A stretch of DNA of 64,000 nucleotides from contig NC_013887.1 of assembly GCF_000025525.1 (NCBI RefSeq), positions 940,729-1,004,728 of the forward strand, given 5' to 3'. This document shows positions 38,180-50,952 of this stretch, in pieces. Within the stretch, counting starts at the first letter, position 1; every line of letters begins with the position of its first letter. The DNA is from Methanocaldococcus sp. FS406-22 (GTDB lineage: Archaea; AGJL01; Methanococci; Methanococcales; Methanocaldococcaceae). Position numbers and translations under genes: made by a program. The notes beneath the pieces were generated by a model that was given only the letters and a program-made list of their open reading frames with translations, was not told the DNA's origin and made no database searches.

Positions 38180-38625
38180 AGAATATCCTCCAAGAGGTCT
38201 GATTTTAACTCAAAATTACTTGAAGAATATAACCTTAAAGTTAGCATGTTTCCATCCTCCAAGAGGTCTGATTTTAACATTTTTAAAGGAGATGTAAGGA
38301 TTACGGCACGAAAACAATTTCCATCCTCCTCCAAGAGGTCTGATTTTAACATAGATGATGTTCCTTCTGGAATGCCACAAGATATATTTGAGTTTCCATC
38401 CTCCAAGAGGTCTGATTTTAACCATTTTAGAAAATTATTTACTAATCTTTTAGCTTATAAGTTTCCATCCTCCAAGAGGTCTTATTTTAACTATTCAAGA
38501 AATAATAAAGAGGAGTTTGAGACACTAGTTTCCATCCTCCAAGAGGTCTTATTTTAACTTGCTCGGGGTGAAAGAATGAAGTTAGATGTAATAAGTTTCC
38601 ATCCTCCAAGAGGTCTTATTTTAAC
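38180..38625 (-). CRISPR. CRISPR array 1, 7 repeats and 6 spacers
   Basis: Repeats (minus-strand sense) begin GTTAAAAT(A/C)AGACC and end GGATGGAAA(C) around the core CTCTTGGAGG. Plus-strand positions: 38180, 38248, 38318, 38392, 38461, 38528, 38595; about 30-31 nt each with spacers of about 36-41 nt. The leader is on the right (38626-38921), so the array runs leftward and the oldest repeat is at 38180, which is degenerate at its end. The repeat at 38318 has an internal three-base insertion. The three leader-proximal repeats have AAAATAAGACC and the older ones AAAATCAGACC. No cas genes are in the window. Confidence 0.97.
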
Positions 38626-41902: not shown

Positions 41903-41991
41903 GGCGCGGGGTACCGGGCTTGGTAGCCCGGGGCGGACTTCAGATCCGTCGAGGGCGAGAGCCCTCGGGGTTCGATTCCCCCCCTGCGCCG
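41903..41991 (+). tRNA. tRNA-Sec (UCA)
   Basis: Folds as an archaeal selenocysteine tRNA: a 9-bp acceptor stem (GGCGCGGGG with CCCCTGCGCC), a 7-bp D stem closed by a tight loop (CCGGGCT-TGGT-AGCCCGG), anticodon loop CTTCAGA with anticodon TCA at 41940-41942, a long variable arm (CGAGGGC-GAGA-GCCCTCG) and T arm GGGGTTCGATTCCCC. The discriminator is G; CCA is not encoded. It is charged with serine, then converted through phosphoserine (PstK, SepSecS) in archaea. It decodes the frhA TGA in this window. Confidence 0.97.
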
Positions 41992-42010: not shown

Positions 42011-42922
42011 ATGGAAAAAGTATATTCAAAATTTGGGAGAATTGAAGATTTAAAAGAAATTATTTCTGGATTGGCTGATTTTACGGGAATTATTAGAATA
42101 GATAATGCTCTTTTATATTATATTAACTCAAAACTTATCTCATCAAAGCTAAATGGTAGAGAAAAAAGTTTAGAGGAGATATTTTCACAAATTCCAGAGG
42201 AATTTTTGATAGAGATTTATCAAGGGAATGAAGAGGAAGTGAAAACTGCTCTTAGAAATTTTAAACCAGATAAGCCCATTGTTGAAATTTCTAAGCTAAG
42301 TTTGGTTTTTGAAGATGAAGTTATTTTGAATTCTTATAATGATATATTCAAATATTTAACTTACATAAATAAAGTTATTTTTATGCCAAAAAGATTCAAA
42401 AATGAAAAGGCAGTGATTATTTACAAAAACAAAAAAGAAGTTTTTGCCGTATATTTTGGAAAGAAAACATTGTTTGGAAAAAGAGCAATTAGCAAACTAA
42501 AAACAACATTTGCCGTGAGTGAGATAAGTGCAAAAATTGAGAGAACATCTGATAAAGAGTTAAATTCTTTAAAAAATCAATACCCCAAAGGCGTTTTATT
42601 GTTTGGAGAATCAATTAATGATGTTGTTAAGAAGATAACAGCCCAGAAAAAACCAGAGATTTTAGAAAATGCCTCATTAATTGATGCCCTATCTTACGGA
42701 ACATGTTTAATTAAGATTGAAGGCAGTGAAATCGGATACATTATAGCTAAAGATGGAAAGCCAGTGTATGCATTTTTAAATGAATATGATGGAGATAAAA
42801 GCTACAGATTGCTAAAGAGTATGTGTATAGTTGAAGATGTTAAATATTACATTTATAAGTTATCAAAAGAGGAGTATGATATGTTTAAATCATTTGAAGA
42901 AAATAGGATAACAACATCTTAA
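42011..42922 (+). CDS. DUF2226-like archaeal protein
   Basis: 303-residue cytoplasmic protein. An N-terminal segment ([34 protein letters not shown]) and a C-terminal one ([32 protein letters not shown]) resemble a duplicated PilZ/DUF2226-like sensor half, with a lysine-rich linker between. It lies just after tRNA-Sec and is tail to tail with the marker-9 gene, overlapping by four bases. No enzymatic motif. Function unknown. Confidence 0.7.
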
Positions 42923-43390: not shown

Positions 43391-44086
43391 TCACCTTATC
43401 ATTTCTTTTATTTTTTCAATAACTTTATCAATACTTTCTTTTAGAATTTTCTCTCCAAGTTCTTTATCTAACTTAACTCCAAACTTTTCAACGACTTTTG
43501 CCTCTTCATCTATTGCTTTATTGTTTTCTCTTGCCTCTTTTAATCCGACCATACCAACCTCTGGGTATTTGTTAAAGTTGTTGTGCTCTTTCAAAGTTTC
43601 TTTATCAGCTTTAGCTATCCCCATAACATAACCAACAGAAACCTCCTCAGTTGAGGCGTGAGTAAAGGTTATATTTATCATCTCAACCTTTACATCAAAC
43701 TCATACTCCAAATCTTTTAAAAAACTTTCAACTAATACATTCCCTCCATGACAATTGACTATCAAAAACTTCTCTATACCAATTTTCTTACCCTCATTTA
43801 TCAAAAACCTCAAATAGCTATAAACATCCTCTGGTTTGTTGTGAATGCCGTGTTTAACATACTCATATTCAGTTGATGGAATAACAACTCCCAAAAACTT
43901 AGCTCCAGTTAAAATAGATGCCTTTAAAGCTATATAGGAGGCTATCTTTATATCAGTGTCTATTGGCAAAACAGCTCCATGGTTTTCTAAGAACGAGCCA
44001 AGGGCTATAATTCCTATTTTATGAACTTTTTCGTTCAATATATTGCCAGATGATAATCTAAGTTGCATGTTATCCCAATATATCAT
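43391..44086 (-). CDS. arfB: FAPy deformylase ArfB (creatininase family)
   Basis: 231-residue metal-dependent amidohydrolase that removes the formyl group from the FAPy intermediate after ArfA, in archaeal riboflavin and F420 biosynthesis. Creatininase-fold metal ligands are visible: [20 protein letters not shown] (Glu, His, Asp), NCHGGNVLV and the [12 protein letters not shown] segment. The close M. jannaschii homologue was shown to have this activity. The start could also be ATG 44068 (MQLRLS). First gene of a two-gene operon with the marker-9 gene. Confidence 0.85.
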
Positions 44087-44171
44087 TAAATCTCATACAT
44101 AAAGGTTATATTACACATTTTATATTTAAATATAAATATTCTCTCATCATGTTAGAAATTGGTGGTGATTT

Positions 44172-47100
44172 ATGAACTTAAATAATTTCTATGAATCTAC
44201 AATCAATGGAGTATTTTTCCAATATTGTTTTGAAGCTGGTTTATTATATAAAAATGCTAAGTGCTATGAAGTTGAGGGAGTAGGCATTTATGATGAGTAT
44301 TATGATGACTGTAGGAAATATTATAGAGGTCCAAAATCTAAATTAGATGTGAAATACTATTCCAACATACTACAATTCTATAAAGATTTGGATTATCACA
44401 CTACAACGTTCAAATCTATAAAGGATGTGATAGAAGAGAATTTAGAAGATATATTAAAAGATTTTAAAAAATATTATTCTACTAAAGAAAGCTCATTCAC
44501 GGAGAAAATCTCAAATGCTAACGAATTAATTTCTAATTTAGAATATACAAATCTGTATATTATTTTATACTCCGCCTTACATACTTCGATGGTATTTATT
44601 GAGGCAATTAATAAACATTTCCCAAACAAAAATTTAGAAATATGGTGTGATATTGGGATTAAAGATGATATTGAATACTTAAAACCAGATATTATAATTG
44701 TGGATGAAGATGAAACTGAAAATGAAGCTAAAAATTTTTTAGCTGTTGGGGACTTAAAAGCTCCAAAACAACTCTTAAATGCCTTAAATATGGGAGATAT
44801 ATTTAACGAAAATATGAATTTGATAACAGTTAATGAAGGAAAATTTTTGGAAAAACTACATATCCCAGAATACGTTACTCCATCTCATTTTATGCATATT
44901 GCCAATACTCAAAATAAACTCTTTAAAATTATGAGATACGCTAAAAAACTCAAAGTTCAAAAAATCTATTGGATTACTCCACTAAAAATATATTACTATG
45001 ACAATAGTGATAAATTACAATATGAATTGCTCAAATTTCATGAGGAGCTTATTAACAAATTATCAAAAAATGAATATTTTGAACGTAATGAGCGTTTTGG
45101 TATTTTAGATTATAAAAAACATCTTAGTAGTGGAGATTACTACATTAAAAAAGAAGACGGGAAATTAATTATTGGAAATGATGTCATTGGGTATATAAAA
45201 GAATATAAGGGTTTTAGCAAAATAAAATTAAAACCTTACAAAATTCGTTCTGATGAAGCAACTTTGTTATTATCAAGAGGTTTCCATAGATATAAATTTA
45301 GTGAATTGTTAAATAGTGATGATGATATTATAATAAATGCTTCAGGGCAGGGAGTTGGTAAGAACTCTGTTTTAGAGGATTACTTAAAAAGCACTAATGC
45401 CAAAATATTATTAATCACTCCGAGAAAAATTATCATCAATGAGATGTTTAATAGACTAAATGGTCTAAGAAGAAATAACGATGAAAAACTCAAAGTTGCA
45501 AAGTGTTATAGAAAAGAGAGATTAGAATTTACCACCAAAAACAGAGTTCATGCATATAAAATCTATGATGCAGAGAATAGTAGTGATAAGTTCTTTAAAC
45601 TTATATCTGAAAATTATGATGCCATATTAACAACTTCACAAACTTTGAGATTTATATTAACAAAAATTAACCAGATAAACACAGAAATTAAATATGTAGA
45701 TGATTTAAAAAATAAATTAGAGTATAAAAAATTAAAAAATAGATTATTCGATGCCGAGAAAATGTTAGCATATAAAAAATTTTTCCAATATTTTGATTTG
45801 ATAGTTATAGATGAATATTCTGCCAATCCAGATGATGTCAAATCATCAATTTTAGAGTTAATTGTTGTCTTAAACGAACTAAAAAGAGCATTTCCAGAAG
45901 AAAAATTTGCTAAAATTGTTATAACAGATGCAAGCTTAACGGACTTAGAAGGTTTTGTAGATCAACTACAAAGATTTGTAAAGAAATATAGTAATGGGGA
46001 AAGAGTATTTTATGATAAGATAACGATGGATGTTAAACCCAACTTATATACCACTATCAAAAGAGAAGATATTACTATCAACGGCAACGAGATTTATGTT
46101 GAAGATATTTTAATAAATGATTATTTAAAAAAGGAAGAGGATATTACCACTATTAAAAACAAAATAACACAGAGCACCAAATTACAATATTACCACAATA
46201 ATTTTGAGATAGATAACTTATCAATTTCAGTGTTTAAAGTGCATTTTAAACTACCTTTAACTTTATATATCCACAATAGTGAAATAGTAGAGGTTAATAG
46301 GAAAGAGGATTTATTGGAAAAATTTGCTAAGAAGATTATTGAACACTGTAAAAATACTTTAAAAGATAGGTTTGATGAGGCAATATTAAATGGGGAGGTA
46401 GTGTTTTATTGTGATAATATAATGCTATGCGATGTTTTAGAAAGAGAATTAATTAAAGAGTATGGTAATAGGGATTTGTTTGTTGTATTGCACTCTCAAA
46501 CTGATGCTGAAAGAATTACAAAAAAATTAAAAGATAAAGATATGAAAATAAATATTATTGGAACGTCATCTTTAGCTTATGGAGTCTCATTAGAAAAGCA
46601 TAAATTTTTGTTTATAATCCCACCATATCCAGAATCGGGATGGGAATCCACATTTTATAAAGATGTTAGACACATTGAAAAGATAAGACAGGTTATAAAT
46701 AGACTGAGAGGGTCTAAAATAAAAAGTGTCTATATTAACGCATTGGATTTTATATTTTGTGATGAAAATGAAGATAAGAATATAAAAGTTAGATATAGGT
46801 ACTATGACATTAAATCAACGTTTAAAAATATTATATTAAATGATAATGTTGTTATAAAACCGCAATGTGTGTATTTACCTTTACAAACATGGAACAGATT
46901 GTTATTCAATAATTATGATAAAAAATCAGAATATAAGTTGCTAAGCTCATACATTTTTGCAGTTGAGTTTTTTGCACAAATTAGAAGTGCATTATTACAG
47001 TGTGGTTTCAAAGTTAATGATTTCGTAAATGTAAATGTGAAGGATTTGTCAATACTATCTAATTTATATTTAGTAACTTCACCAATGCTTACTCCATTTC

Positions 47101-47783
47101 AGATAAAGAATATAAAATTGTTTGTTGGTTATGATGCAGTCGGAGGAATAGTTCATTTAAAAAGGTTAGTCGATTATTGTTTATACATATTAAATGAATG
47201 TTGTGAAAATCCAGATTTAACAATGCCTAAGGGAATATCACTATTAGCTTACGTAATTCTGAAAGAACTAAATGTTAAAGAATGTAAAGATGGAGATATT
47301 AAAGTAAATTTAGATGGGAAAATTAGATTATATAAAAAAGCTGAAATTCATAAAATCATTGATGAAAAGTTTAAGAGCAGTAAGTTGAATGAGAAAGATT
47401 TTGTTAATGACATTTTATCTAAAGTATATAGGGAAGTTTTGAAAAATTGTAATATTATAATGACATTATATCTATTTAATGCATTATTCGATGATAAAGA
47501 GTTAGTTTCTGAATTATACCCATTTATGCATGCTTTAATACCACCATTATTGAATGTGGATGTTGGAAATTGTATAAACAAATGCATTGTTAAACTAACT
47601 ATTGAGGATAAAGATTTTGATGAACGTAAAAAAAGTATTGGTATTTTGACAACACATCCATTACTATCGAGAAAAGACGATAAATTGGTAATGAAATTGA
47701 TAAGAGAGATTTGTTATACACATTGTATTTGTGAAAATCAACTTCCAATACCGAGATTAAATAAGTTAGTTGAGTCTGGCTAA
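44172..47783 (+). CDS. Nuclease-helicase fusion: PD-(D/E)XK domain plus SF2 helicase
   Basis: 1203 residues. In the N-terminal 250 residues, a PD-(D/E)XK-like site is visible (KPDIIIVDE, Asp173; AVGDLKAPK, Asp194 and Lys196). The helicase core has Walker A SGQGVGKNS (Lys397), motif Ia ILLITPRKIIINEM, Walker B LIVIDEYS (Asp547-Glu548), a TDAS motif III, and a C-terminal RecA domain with HSQTDAERI, GTSSLAYGVSLEK (motif V) and QVINRLRGS (motif VI). The remaining 350 residues are a helical domain of unknown type. Start after GGTGGTGATTT. It ends four bases from the convergent split gene. Nuclease plus helicase plus an unknown partner suggests anti-plasmid/virus defence or a plasmid-type replication origin protein; neither is shown. 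Confidence 0.8.
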   Translation: MNLNNFYESTINGVFFQYCFEAGLLYKNAKCYEVEGVGIYDEYYDDCRKYYRGPKSKLDVKYYSNILQFYKDLDYHTTTFKSIKDVIEENLEDILKDFKKYYSTKESSFTEKISNANELISNLEYTNLYIILYSALHTSMVFIEAINKHFPNKNLEIWCDIGIKDDIEYLKPDIIIVDEDETENEAKNFLAVGDLKAPKQLLNALNMGDIFNENMNLITVNEGKFLEKLHIPEYVTPSHFMHIANTQNKLFKIMRYAKKLKVQKIYWITPLKIYYYDNSDKLQYELLKFHEELINKLSKNEYFERNERFGILDYKKHLSSGDYYIKKEDGKLIIGNDVIGYIKEYKGFSKIKLKPYKIRSDEATLLLSRGFHRYKFSELLNSDDDIIINASGQGVGKNSVLEDYLKSTNAKILLITPRKIIINEMFNRLNGLRRNNDEKLKVAKCYRKERLEFTTKNRVHAYKIYDAENSSDKFFKLISENYDAILTTSQTLRFILTKINQINTEIKYVDDLKNKLEYKKLKNRLFDAEKMLAYKKFFQYFDLIVIDEYSANPDDVKSSILELIVVLNELKRAFPEEKFAKIVITDASLTDLEGFVDQLQRFVKKYSNGERVFYDKITMDVKPNLYTTIKREDITINGNEIYVEDILINDYLKKEEDITTIKNKITQSTKLQYYHNNFEIDNLSISVFKVHFKLPLTLYIHNSEIVEVNRKEDLLEKFAKKIIEHCKNTLKDRFDEAILNGEVVFYCDNIMLCDVLERELIKEYGNRDLFVVLHSQTDAERITKKLKDKDMKINIIGTSSLAYGVSLEKHKFLFIIPPYPESGWESTFYKDVRHIEKIRQVINRLRGSKIKSVYINALDFIFCDENEDKNIKVRYRYYDIKSTFKNIILNDNVVIKPQCVYLPLQTWNRLLFNNYDKKSEYKLLSSYIFAVEFFAQIRSALLQCGFKVNDFVNVNVKDLSILSNLYLVTSPMLTPFQIKNIKLFVGYDAVGGIVHLKRLVDYCLYILNECCENPDLTMPKGISLLAYVILKELNVKECKDGDIKVNLDGKIRLYKKAEIHKIIDEKFKSSKLNEKDFVNDILSKVYREVLKNCNIIMTLYLFNALFDDKELVSELYPFMHALIPPLLNVDVGNCINKCIVKLTIEDKDFDERKKSIGILTTHPLLSRKDDKLVMKLIREICYTHCICENQLPIPRLNKLVESG

Positions 47784-47787
47784 TTGC

Positions 47788-49065
47788 TTATTTATTATTT
47801 ATTAGCTTACCCCCACACAATAAACAAATTGCTTTTATTCTTTTTTCAACAGCATCTGGATTTATTATTCTTTTTAATCCAACTACTGATGGAAAGTCAT
47901 CGTCTTCTGAAAAGACATAAGTCATCTTTAAAATATTTTCTACAACATCGTTTAGAGTGCATTTCCAACGTGCAATTTGAGTGTAGATTCTATGTTTATT
48001 TTTAGCCCTAAGCACCCCTGCAATAAACATGCTGTTTAATCCTTCAACAACACAAAAATGTTTTTTATCGTCAGTCTTTTCATCACAACTGTAAATACTT
48101 TTTTCTAAAACTATATAAACATTTTTGTCTTCTAATAATTTTTTACCAAAATATTCTTTTATAATTGTATTAATGTTTTTAATCATTTCTTCTGCTTCTT
48201 CAATACCTTTAACTCTATAAACCTCTAATAATACATTTTTGTGGGGTTCAACCCATTTTTTTAATTTTTTCTTTGCATATTTGGATAGTTTTAATTTATC
48301 TCCATCTTCTTCCAATGGTGTTGGTATTATGATGTAGTTTAATTCACCATTTAACAAACTTTTAATTTCAAAATAAGCTATTTTTTCTGATTTTCCTTCA
48401 AACTCAAATTCCCTATTGTATTGTGTAATATAACATAAATCAACATTTTTGCATATATTATTAATTGCGAATTCATAAGGATATAAGGATGAGTATAAGT
48501 TTCTTTCCTTTGGCAAATATGATTTTTTGAATACTCCACAAATATTTGGAATATCATTAATTTTGTTATTTGCCATTGTAAGAACAGTAGGTATTGATAT
48601 AAGATACTTTTCTCTTTTTTTAACATCTTCCCCAACTTCAATATACACAAACGGATATGCTATATCCCCATCTTCATAGAGTTTAAACACATCCAATTTG
48701 TAGTATTTTCCATTAAAAGATTCAAATATATAGTCTAACTTTTTACATGCTTCATCTAAATTATCAAAACATTCATTGGCATAATTTAAAAACTCATTAA
48801 ATTTACTATTTGACTTATACCCCAATATTCCTCTATCATAATTTTCTAAAAATTGTATTTGAACTCTTTCACTACCTAAAATCTCCTTCATTTGATAGTA
48901 TAAATCGTGTATTGTGGTTTTATCGTTAGATTTCTTTGGTGGCAAATTAACAACAATGTAATAATGCTCATCGTTCTTCTTTATGCAATTGTAAATATCC
49001 AATGCCAAATATAGTGCGGCTATTGCAGTCCTCACTTCATCTATTTCTTTATTATCATTTATATG
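47788..49065 (-). pseudogene. C-terminal half of large accessory protein, separated by an IS-derived insertion
   Basis: 425 codons from CAT at 49065-49063 to TAA at 47788, continuing in frame from the upstream fragment ending at TAC 49406-49404. The open frame can be extended rightward only by reading into the inserted element (GEGFKPSALLKKLRPLGRRVC), which is not real protein. Visible content: FVYIEVGEDVKKREKYLISIP, FKKSYLPKERNLYSSLYPYE, FEGKSEKIAYFEIKSLL, NVYIVLEKSIYSCDE and FVVEGLNSMFIAGVLRA-like strands, a mixed alpha/beta domain with no motif I can name. A remote PIWI-like fold was considered but no catalytic residues stand out. It lacks its own start, so it is probably silent unless re-initiation occurs. 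Confidence 0.7.
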
Positions 49066-49403
49066 ACATACTCTCCGCCCTAAAGGGCGGAGTTTCTTTA
49101 GGAGAGCAGAGGGTTTAAAACCCTCACCCTCCATGGGTTGCCAAGCCCACTATCCCTACCCCTTTCGGGGTTCGGGACTACCTTTTCCCAACTTAACGTC
49201 CCCAGCGGTGGGATTTTCGAGACTGAAGTTTCTGCTTCAGGTAGCGAAATCTTTGATTTCGCCTGAATCCCACCCATAATAACGTGGACTGGGGACAATC
49301 GTTAGATTCTAACTTCGAATATATAAAAATTACGCTTGTCCCACCCACCTCCCCTAATTCATCACCGCCCTAAAGGGCGGTGCTTTCTTAGCGACAATTA
49401 ATG
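49066..49403 (-). mobile_element. Non-autonomous IS200/IS605-type element inserted in the accessory gene
   Basis: 338 bp with no transposase. On the minus strand it begins immediately after the tetranucleotide TTAC (49407-49404), a known IS608-type target. A subterminal hairpin CCGCCCTTTAGGGCGG is present near the left end (about 49367-49382) and again near the right end (about 49076-49091). No target duplication is seen, apart from CAT at both borders, which makes the exact edges ambiguous by three bases. The interior is a GC-rich folded stretch (about 49098-49300) that resembles the tnpB 3' end plus RNA-coding tail of such elements, including a remnant frame with EAETSVSKIPPLGTLSWE. Possible guide (omega-like) RNA remnant. 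Confidence 0.72.
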
Positions 49404-50774
49404 GTAAGATTTATAACCATTTTCGTATAATTTGGATATATCAATATAATATACATTAACTTCATCATAAAGTAGCTTACTACCAACCAATAATTCAAGT
49501 GCAAAATAATTAATGTGTTTTTCATTAATAACTGAGTTATTAAACCTTATATCGGCATTTATGAAAATAAAGTGTGCCTTTTTAAATTTATCTAAGGTTT
49601 TATCAATATAAAACCTACCTTTAGATTTTCGTCTATTGCTATCAAACATATATGGTGTATAATATTCACCCAATTGCTTCACAGCTTCAATAAATACTTT
49701 CTTACGGAGTGTCATTATTTCTTTTTGTAAATTCTTATTAACATTTTTATCAGATTTTCCTCCGTCCTCATTAGAGTTTATGCTCTCAATAACTTTAATG
49801 TATGCTTCTGCATAGTCGTCCAATACGGTTTTAATATCTTCATCACATAAATCTGTGTATGTAAAATCTTTGATAAGATTAGCAATATACATTTTAATCT
49901 CATCATCTCCATGAACATACATTTTTAATAGATAGTATAAAGGACCATATCCAAAACCTCCCCCATACAACCCAACGGACAATTTTATAGCATTTTCATT
50001 TTTATTTAATATTCTACCTATTTTTATTGAAAATGGTAGTGTTGGAGGTGAGTTTGCCTTGTATGTTTTCTTAAGCATTTCAAAGCTATCTTTTACTACT
50101 TTATCAACATTATTCTTGTTTTCATTAATATACTTTTTAATATATTCATCAACTAACACTTTATAATTTTTATAAATTTTATTATTTTTCCATTCTTTTT
50201 CATCTTTAATAATATTTTCATGCAACCATATTACAAATTCTACGAAATCTTTAACATCTTTATTGGTTATATTGTTAAGTTCTTTTTTTAGATGTTCTAA
50301 GGCTAATGACTCTAAATCACTAACTAAATCTTTATCAACTATTACTGTATTACATTTTGAAAGTTCAGATTGTTTCATTTTTTTATATTTAACTTTTAAT
50401 TCCTTTTTATGAGGATATACTTTATTTAGTTTATCAAATTCATCAATAACTAAGCTTATTGTACCAATTTTGTGAGTAGATAAAATCTTTTCAAACCTAC
50501 TATTTTTAAATTCGTGTTTAACAATATCTATAATGTCGTTATTATTATCTAATTTATTTAAATATCCAATCCAATTTACTATTAATTCTGGTATTATATC
50601 TTTATTAACAACCTTGCCTATCAAATCGTTAAATTTTGCAAATGGGAAGAGAAAAACCTCTTCACCATATTTCAATGAGTATGAATCTATTTGATTATCC
50701 AATTCTTTCAATAATTTTAACAATAACTTTTCATATTCCCCTCCAATAACAACCTTTCCGGTTGGACTTGTCAT
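49398..50774 (-). CDS. N-terminal half of large accessory protein (truncated by insertion)
   Basis: 458 codons from ATG 50774, with GGTGAAATT as ribosome-binding site, to a TAA at 49398 supplied by the inserted element. Up to codon 457 the protein is original. The region shows long helical stretches, a KSNSxxGxxKIG-like hydrophobic core (IGTISLVIDEFDKLN), a Gly-rich turn GLYGGGFGYGPLYYLLKM and a basic end (RRKSKGRFYIDKTLDKFKKAHFIFI). No known family recognised. Removal of the element would give an 882-residue protein ending at 47788. It is convergent with the nuclease-helicase. The truncated product may still be made. Confidence 0.65.
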   Translation of the reverse strand: MTSPTGKVVIGGEYEKLLLKLLKELDNQIDSYSLKYGEEVFLFPFAKFNDLIGKVVNKDIIPELIVNWIGYLNKLDNNNDIIDIVKHEFKNSRFEKILSTHKIGTISLVIDEFDKLNKVYPHKKELKVKYKKMKQSELSKCNTVIVDKDLVSDLESLALEHLKKELNNITNKDVKDFVEFVIWLHENIIKDEKEWKNNKIYKNYKVLVDEYIKKYINENKNNVDKVVKDSFEMLKKTYKANSPPTLPFSIKIGRILNKNENAIKLSVGLYGGGFGYGPLYYLLKMYVHGDDEIKMYIANLIKDFTYTDLCDEDIKTVLDDYAEAYIKVIESINSNEDGGKSDKNVNKNLQKEIMTLRKKVFIEAVKQLGEYYTPYMFDSNRRKSKGRFYIDKTLDKFKKAHFIFINADIRFNNSVINEKHINYFALELLVGSKLLYDEVNVYYIDISKLYENGYKSYH

Positions 50775-50952
50775 AATTTCACCATTTGTAGTTTGATATT
50801 CACACCAACAATAATTTAATTTTGAAAAATTAGAAATATAGACTCCTATCCCAATAATAACAAAGTAATATCAAAATGGTGGATGTTCTGTTAAATACAG
50901 TTCTATTTAAGAATATCATTATTTAAAAATTTCAAAATTAAAATAAAAAGAA

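Follow-up and report, generated by a model that had tools for sequence, protein, structure and literature searches.

A MITE-split two-gene module with a nuclease-helicase subunit in Methanocaldococcus sp. FS406-22, a candidate restriction-like immune system of archaea

What is the role of a large nuclease-helicase gene that sits, intact, in an accessory island of a Methanocaldococcus genome? The gene lies at positions 44172-47783 (plus strand) of a 64,000-nucleotide stretch of DNA from Methanocaldococcus sp. FS406-22 (NC_013887.1; hereafter the window), and an earlier description made from the letters alone (the sequence-only reading) had presented its product as an uncharacterised fusion of a nuclease with a superfamily 2 (SF2) helicase. 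Beyond that description, we find that the protein, here called the motor, is one half of a two-gene module, the other half being a partner that is encoded next door by minus-strand open reading frames (ORFs) split by a miniature inverted-repeat transposable element (MITE). We propose that the motor is probably the nuclease-motor subunit of an undescribed archaeal module that acts as a restriction-like immune system.

The motor ORF begins with ATG and runs for 1203 codons without an internal stop, and the gene is present as a single copy within its own genome. Its relatives, which share 20-32% identity with it, were gathered stepwise: a two-sequence profile retrieved more distant relatives, and a four-sequence profile gave a family of 10 members, drawn from the window, one other Methanocaldococcus and eight genomes of a second phylum, which from their gene content we take to be probably Thermococcales. 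Across the alignment of this family the pattern of a PD-(D/E)XK active site (residues 172-196, PD...GDLK; 44685-44759, plus strand) is invariant, with P172-D173 and G193-D194-x-K196 present in 10 of 10 members. All 10 likewise share K249, K252, Y256 and A257 of a KxxKxxxYA helix (residues 249-257; 44916-44942, plus strand), which we liken to the QxxxY motif of RecB/HsdR-type nucleases. A structural model of the motor predicts, with low confidence, strands at residues 173-177 and 189-192. No known nuclease family was recognised: the PD-(D/E)XK region has no Pfam match, and a profile of the N-terminal part of the motor matched no nuclease among PDB sequences.

Downstream of the nuclease motif, the family alignment identified SF2 motifs I (Walker A; residues 390-398, ASGQGVGKN; 45339-45365), II (Walker B; residues 543-548, LIVIDE; 45798-45815), III (residues 584-591, ITDASLTD; 45921-45944), V (residues 796-808, IGTSSLAYGVSLE; 46557-46595) and VI (residues 836-847, EKIRQVINRLRG; 46677-46712), all on the plus strand and all conserved in the 10 members except motif I of one relative (L027); motif IV is also present and conserved. 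In the window protein the motif II region reads VIDEY, the core of motif V is GTSSLAYGVSLE and that of motif VI is IRQVINRLRG. Single family members matched ResIII (best E 8e-8) and DEAD (6e-5), and the window protein's own ResIII/DEAD match is sub-threshold (E 0.07). The structure prediction of the motor, made from two sequences, has a mean predicted local distance difference test (pLDDT) score of 34 and is usable over residues ~386-600 only. This part is modelled as the first RecA-like domain and matches SF2 structures such as those of MDA5/RIG-I and Brr2 (E 2e-4); the remainder of the model is of low confidence. By its motifs, family matches and modelled core, the motor is an SF2 helicase.

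Two features of motif I depart from the usual SF2 pattern. The Walker A lysine, usually followed in SF2 proteins by Ser or Thr, is followed by Asn in the window protein: the motif ends in GKN in seven of the nine members having a P-loop (the window protein and six others) and in GKT in two. In addition, the L027 relative (L027 8419-11364) has lost, in frame, a stretch including the P-loop; its close relative, the L043 copy, still has this stretch. The 10-member alignment contains no cysteine that is invariant or nearly so, and this speaks against a DinG-type iron-sulphur helicase.

The C-terminal region (residues 861-1203; 46752-47780, plus strand) has no recognised fold. These ~350 residues, for which the sequence-only reading had claimed no recognisable match, are conserved in the family, for example at G1157-I-x3-H1162-P1163, and match no Pfam family. 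Searches of the whole window protein against Pfam, NCBIfam, PHROGs, PADLOC and PDB sequences returned nothing specific, and no close match to a plasmid replication initiator or to a described defence protein was found. With the nuclease residues invariant and the helicase motifs conserved, the description as an uncharacterised nuclease-SF2 helicase fusion stands.

Does the motor act alone? A large partner accompanies it in every genome in which it was found. In the nine related genomes a partner gene of 727-947 residues immediately precedes the motor gene, in the same orientation; the two genes overlap by 4-17 bp in eight of these and are separated by a 10-bp gap in the other Methanocaldococcus (locus L005). 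The arrangement in the window differs, in that the partner is convergent with the motor, lies 4 bp from the motor 3' end and is split into two minus-strand ORFs, one of 448 residues representing the 3' part of the gene (47788-49134; first 24 residues MITE-derived) and one of 458 residues representing its 5' part (49398-50774; last codons MITE-derived). When aligned pairwise with the intact 947-residue L005 partner, the 448-residue half gave a z-score of about 5 against the C-terminal part (controls, 0.4-2.6), and the 458-residue half gave a z-score of 4.8 against the N-terminal part (controls, 1.1-2.3). The family partner profile fails to detect the window halves, so their homology to the L005 partner is moderate. 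From the pairwise z-scores, the position and the split frame, we assign both halves to the partner with moderate confidence. The partner is the less conserved component of the pair. A full-text search, beyond whose coverage most subscription journals lie, found no publication describing the module.

The element that interrupts the partner gene is an IS605-type MITE of 341 bp (49063-49403, minus strand), inserted after TTAC, with its ends set by five copies. It encodes no protein, and all five copies in the genome (four of them elsewhere) are identical and preceded by TTAC; this identity indicates a recent insertion. Because both junctions are codon boundaries of one frame, the site without the MITE would be one open frame of ~881 residues. 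A related full-length element (L019, G000:C1:1029000-1033000) encodes TnpA (142 residues) and TnpB (408 residues), and the C-terminal coding sequence of this TnpB matches the MITE; the element sits shortly after a 225-residue ORF resembling Cas6. The MITE folds far better than shuffled sequences (z -8.0), and its Rfam matches, to sot0042 and HgcC, are both sub-threshold. These properties agree with those of a TnpB guide-RNA scaffold, which may have been mobilised without its proteins.

Because the MITE splits the partner, the module is probably inactive in this strain. The locus could be a remnant of a module that no longer works in this genome, its intact motor ORF having yet to decay; the recent arrival, within the partner gene, of a MITE that shares its exact sequence with four other copies fits such a view. 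On the other hand, the motor ORF is intact over all 1203 codons, and the cell might still produce the partner in the form of two separate chains. We judge inactivity to be rather likely; this estimate applies to the present strain and not to the family, and is independent of those given for the other explanations. In this genome the module would either run without an intact partner or be inactive, with its motor gene still undecayed.

How did the module come to lie here? The island (44087-50950) contains nothing beyond the two genes and the MITE, and is bordered by a creatininase-like gene (43391-44086) and by a short zinc-ribbon gene, presumably Nop10-like, upstream of aIF2-alpha. Of 13 sister species, eight have these two flanking genes side by side, including one (G011) whose own module copy sits elsewhere, and the module is therefore an insertion of two genes that the MITE entered later, in keeping with the accessory island of the sequence-only reading. 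An insertion this discrete would also suit an integrated mobile element, of which these would be cargo or replication genes, with the helicase serving to replicate the element, and the helicase motifs had indeed been likened to those of origin-binding helicases. However, no integrase, relaxase or replication gene was recognised in the island, and neither a search of this genome at E <= 10 nor an hmmscan gave a match to PF02399 (Herpes_ori_bp). Further, tblastn searches of 72,556 plasmid and 50,697 phage records detected no relative, and scans of viral and genome contigs with short peptide patterns recovered no viral relative, their sole find being the copy on JAMOTQ010000062, a contig of a metagenome-assembled genome that is the nearest relative (G011, same genus). 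We regard the mobile-element explanation as highly improbable. Of the two likenesses suggested in the sequence-only reading, that to replication-origin helicases finds no support, and that to defence helicases is the better one, by association only.

The distribution of the module is patchy. It is present in 2 of 14 Methanocaldococcus genomes and absent from the remaining Methanococci-like genomes searched in the window's phylum. The second phylum, represented by 115 genomes, contributes eight convincing members, five of them in one genus (g10), and a weak ninth match in G082 that was not counted. A match in G194 was likewise not taken as a member. Profiles of motor and partner run over 394 archaeal genomes revealed no further pair, and helicase matches in G132 and G390 turned out to be other SF2 proteins without a partner, the latter within a CRISPR-like gene set. 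In close pairs, the motor has a ratio of nonsynonymous to synonymous substitution rates (dN/dS) of 0.11-0.14 and the partner one of 0.09-0.22, and these low values indicate that both proteins are maintained by purifying selection in the relatives. Between G102 and G422 (the L027/L043 pair), dS is 0.03 for the motor and 0.22 for the adjacent partner; that the motor is far less diverged than its neighbour suggests local recombination.

Selection on both genes would also fit a DNA-repair or recombination module, accessory but not defensive, in which the nuclease-helicase would process damaged or stalled DNA of the host and the partner would serve as its loader. So would the position of several copies beside housekeeping genes and, in the stretches read, away from obvious defence neighbours: the copies outside Methanocaldococcus have infB, histidine genes or a diphthine-synthase-like gene next to them. 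The patchy insertion and the empty sites in close relatives argue against this explanation, as does the other Methanocaldococcus copy (L005/L003), which follows, on the same strand, genes for a DUF1156 N6-methyltransferase, a DUF499 ATPase and an SNF2-NOV_C helicase, a set described as a defence system related to bacteriophage exclusion (BREX) (PMC12839542). Overall, we consider a repair function unlikely. As for other neighbours, a 270-residue gene without a Pfam match stands beside one module copy (L046 11177-11989) and occurs in 12 of 61 genomes of that genus, and the gene beside the G441 copy is itself accessory, so that this locus offers no clean empty site.

Taken together, the patchy, discrete insertion and the L005 neighbourhood suggest, solely by association, a role in defence. 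Several observations weigh against this reading. No obvious defence genes adjoin the remaining loci in the sequence read, over which no systematic family search was run, and neither motor nor partner has a PADLOC match. The match of the window halves to the intact partner is weak. Finally, the Walker A Asn and the P-loop loss in L027 make ATPase activity uncertain in some members.

Could the partner instead be a PIWI protein? Bacterial pPIWI-RE three-gene systems combine a restriction-type nuclease, an SF2 helicase and a PIWI module (PMC3702460), and the module could be their archaeal analogue, with the partner as a very divergent MID-PIWI protein that is guide-directed or senses RNA-DNA hybrids and with the fused nuclease-helicase destroying the DNA so marked. 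Like pPIWI-RE, the module has a restriction-type nuclease, an SF2 helicase and a large further component, and lacks a methylase. In a low-confidence model of the partner, residues ~688-829 form three strands-helix-strand-helix-strand, an order that may fit an RNase H-like fold, and this candidate stretch comes after a region that resembles a Rossmann-like one. The model, however, was predicted from three sequences and has a mean pLDDT of 36.6, and the fold search with it was uninformative, with no Argonaute among the 50 matches listed. No Pfam match to Piwi or pPIWI-RE was obtained for any of the nine partners, and hhalign of the partner to an Argonaute alignment returned a probability of 0.1%. 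Unlike in pPIWI-RE, moreover, nuclease and helicase are fused, no conserved DinG Cys cluster is seen, and the system is archaeal. Sequence comparison thus does not support a PIWI-like partner, and we rate such an analogue as quite unlikely. A likeness between motifs in the partner and motifs B and C of PolB was also set aside as a chance resemblance, the spacing being wrong.

We therefore return to the restriction-like immune module, for which we infer a defence role, a division of labour between the two proteins and DNA as the substrate. The partner, presumably the sensing component, would recognise foreign nucleic acid, or a structure that such nucleic acid adopts, and would recruit the nuclease-helicase, which in turn would move along DNA by ATP hydrolysis and cut it, by analogy with HsdR of Type I systems or with Cas3 and Cascade. 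HsdR carries an N-terminal PD-(D/E)XK nuclease, an SF2 motor and a C-terminal region in one chain of ~1000-1200 residues and has a large partner. The motor has the same domain order in one chain and a large partner too, but it has no Pfam match to an HsdR domain, the island holds no methyltransferase or specificity subunit (HsdM/HsdS), and the partner is unrelated by Pfam. Hachiman similarly comprises two genes, for the nuclease HamA and the SF2 helicase HamB; here, in contrast, the nuclease is fused to the helicase, the second protein has 727-947 residues, and the PADLOC and Pfam searches for HamA and HamB were negative for motor and partner. Cas3 also joins an SF2 motor to a nuclease and is recruited to DNA, and weak PADLOC matches to Cas3 (E about 0.01-0.04) were obtained, whereas the nuclease here is of the PD-(D/E)XK rather than the HD type, the island holds no Cascade genes, and the module has its own unrelated partner. 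The DUF499-centred BREX-related (BR) systems (PMC12839542) adjoin the module in the other Methanocaldococcus and include a helicase with a C-terminal NOV_C domain, but they consist of separate genes, and, as far as the surrounding sequence was read, they do not accompany the module in the window or in the eight remaining genomes. By these analogies, the module would join the nuclease-helicase defence systems as a new variant, falling by family matches within neither HsdR nor pPIWI-RE.

Elsewhere in the window there is a CRISPR array (38248-38625) with six repeats matching CRISPR-DR39 (RF01358), and a tRNA-Sec gene (41903-41991) lies between acetyl-CoA decarbonylase/synthase-like genes and an ORF at 42011.

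Outside CRISPR and restriction-modification, the immunity of archaea is little charted. A recent survey of 7747 archaeal genomes calls for the discovery of systems specific to archaea (PMC12988326). The module adds a compact, apparently mobile two-gene candidate that is common to Methanocaldococcus and the second phylum, probably Thermococcales, and that is absent from the family libraries searched. Among the presumed relatives of the genomes with intact copies are genetically tractable species, and the module predicts specific catalytic residues and a dependence on the partner, both of which are directly testable. In Methanocaldococcus sp. FS406-22 itself, the MITE of a TnpB-type transposon that splits the partner provides a natural partner-knockout.
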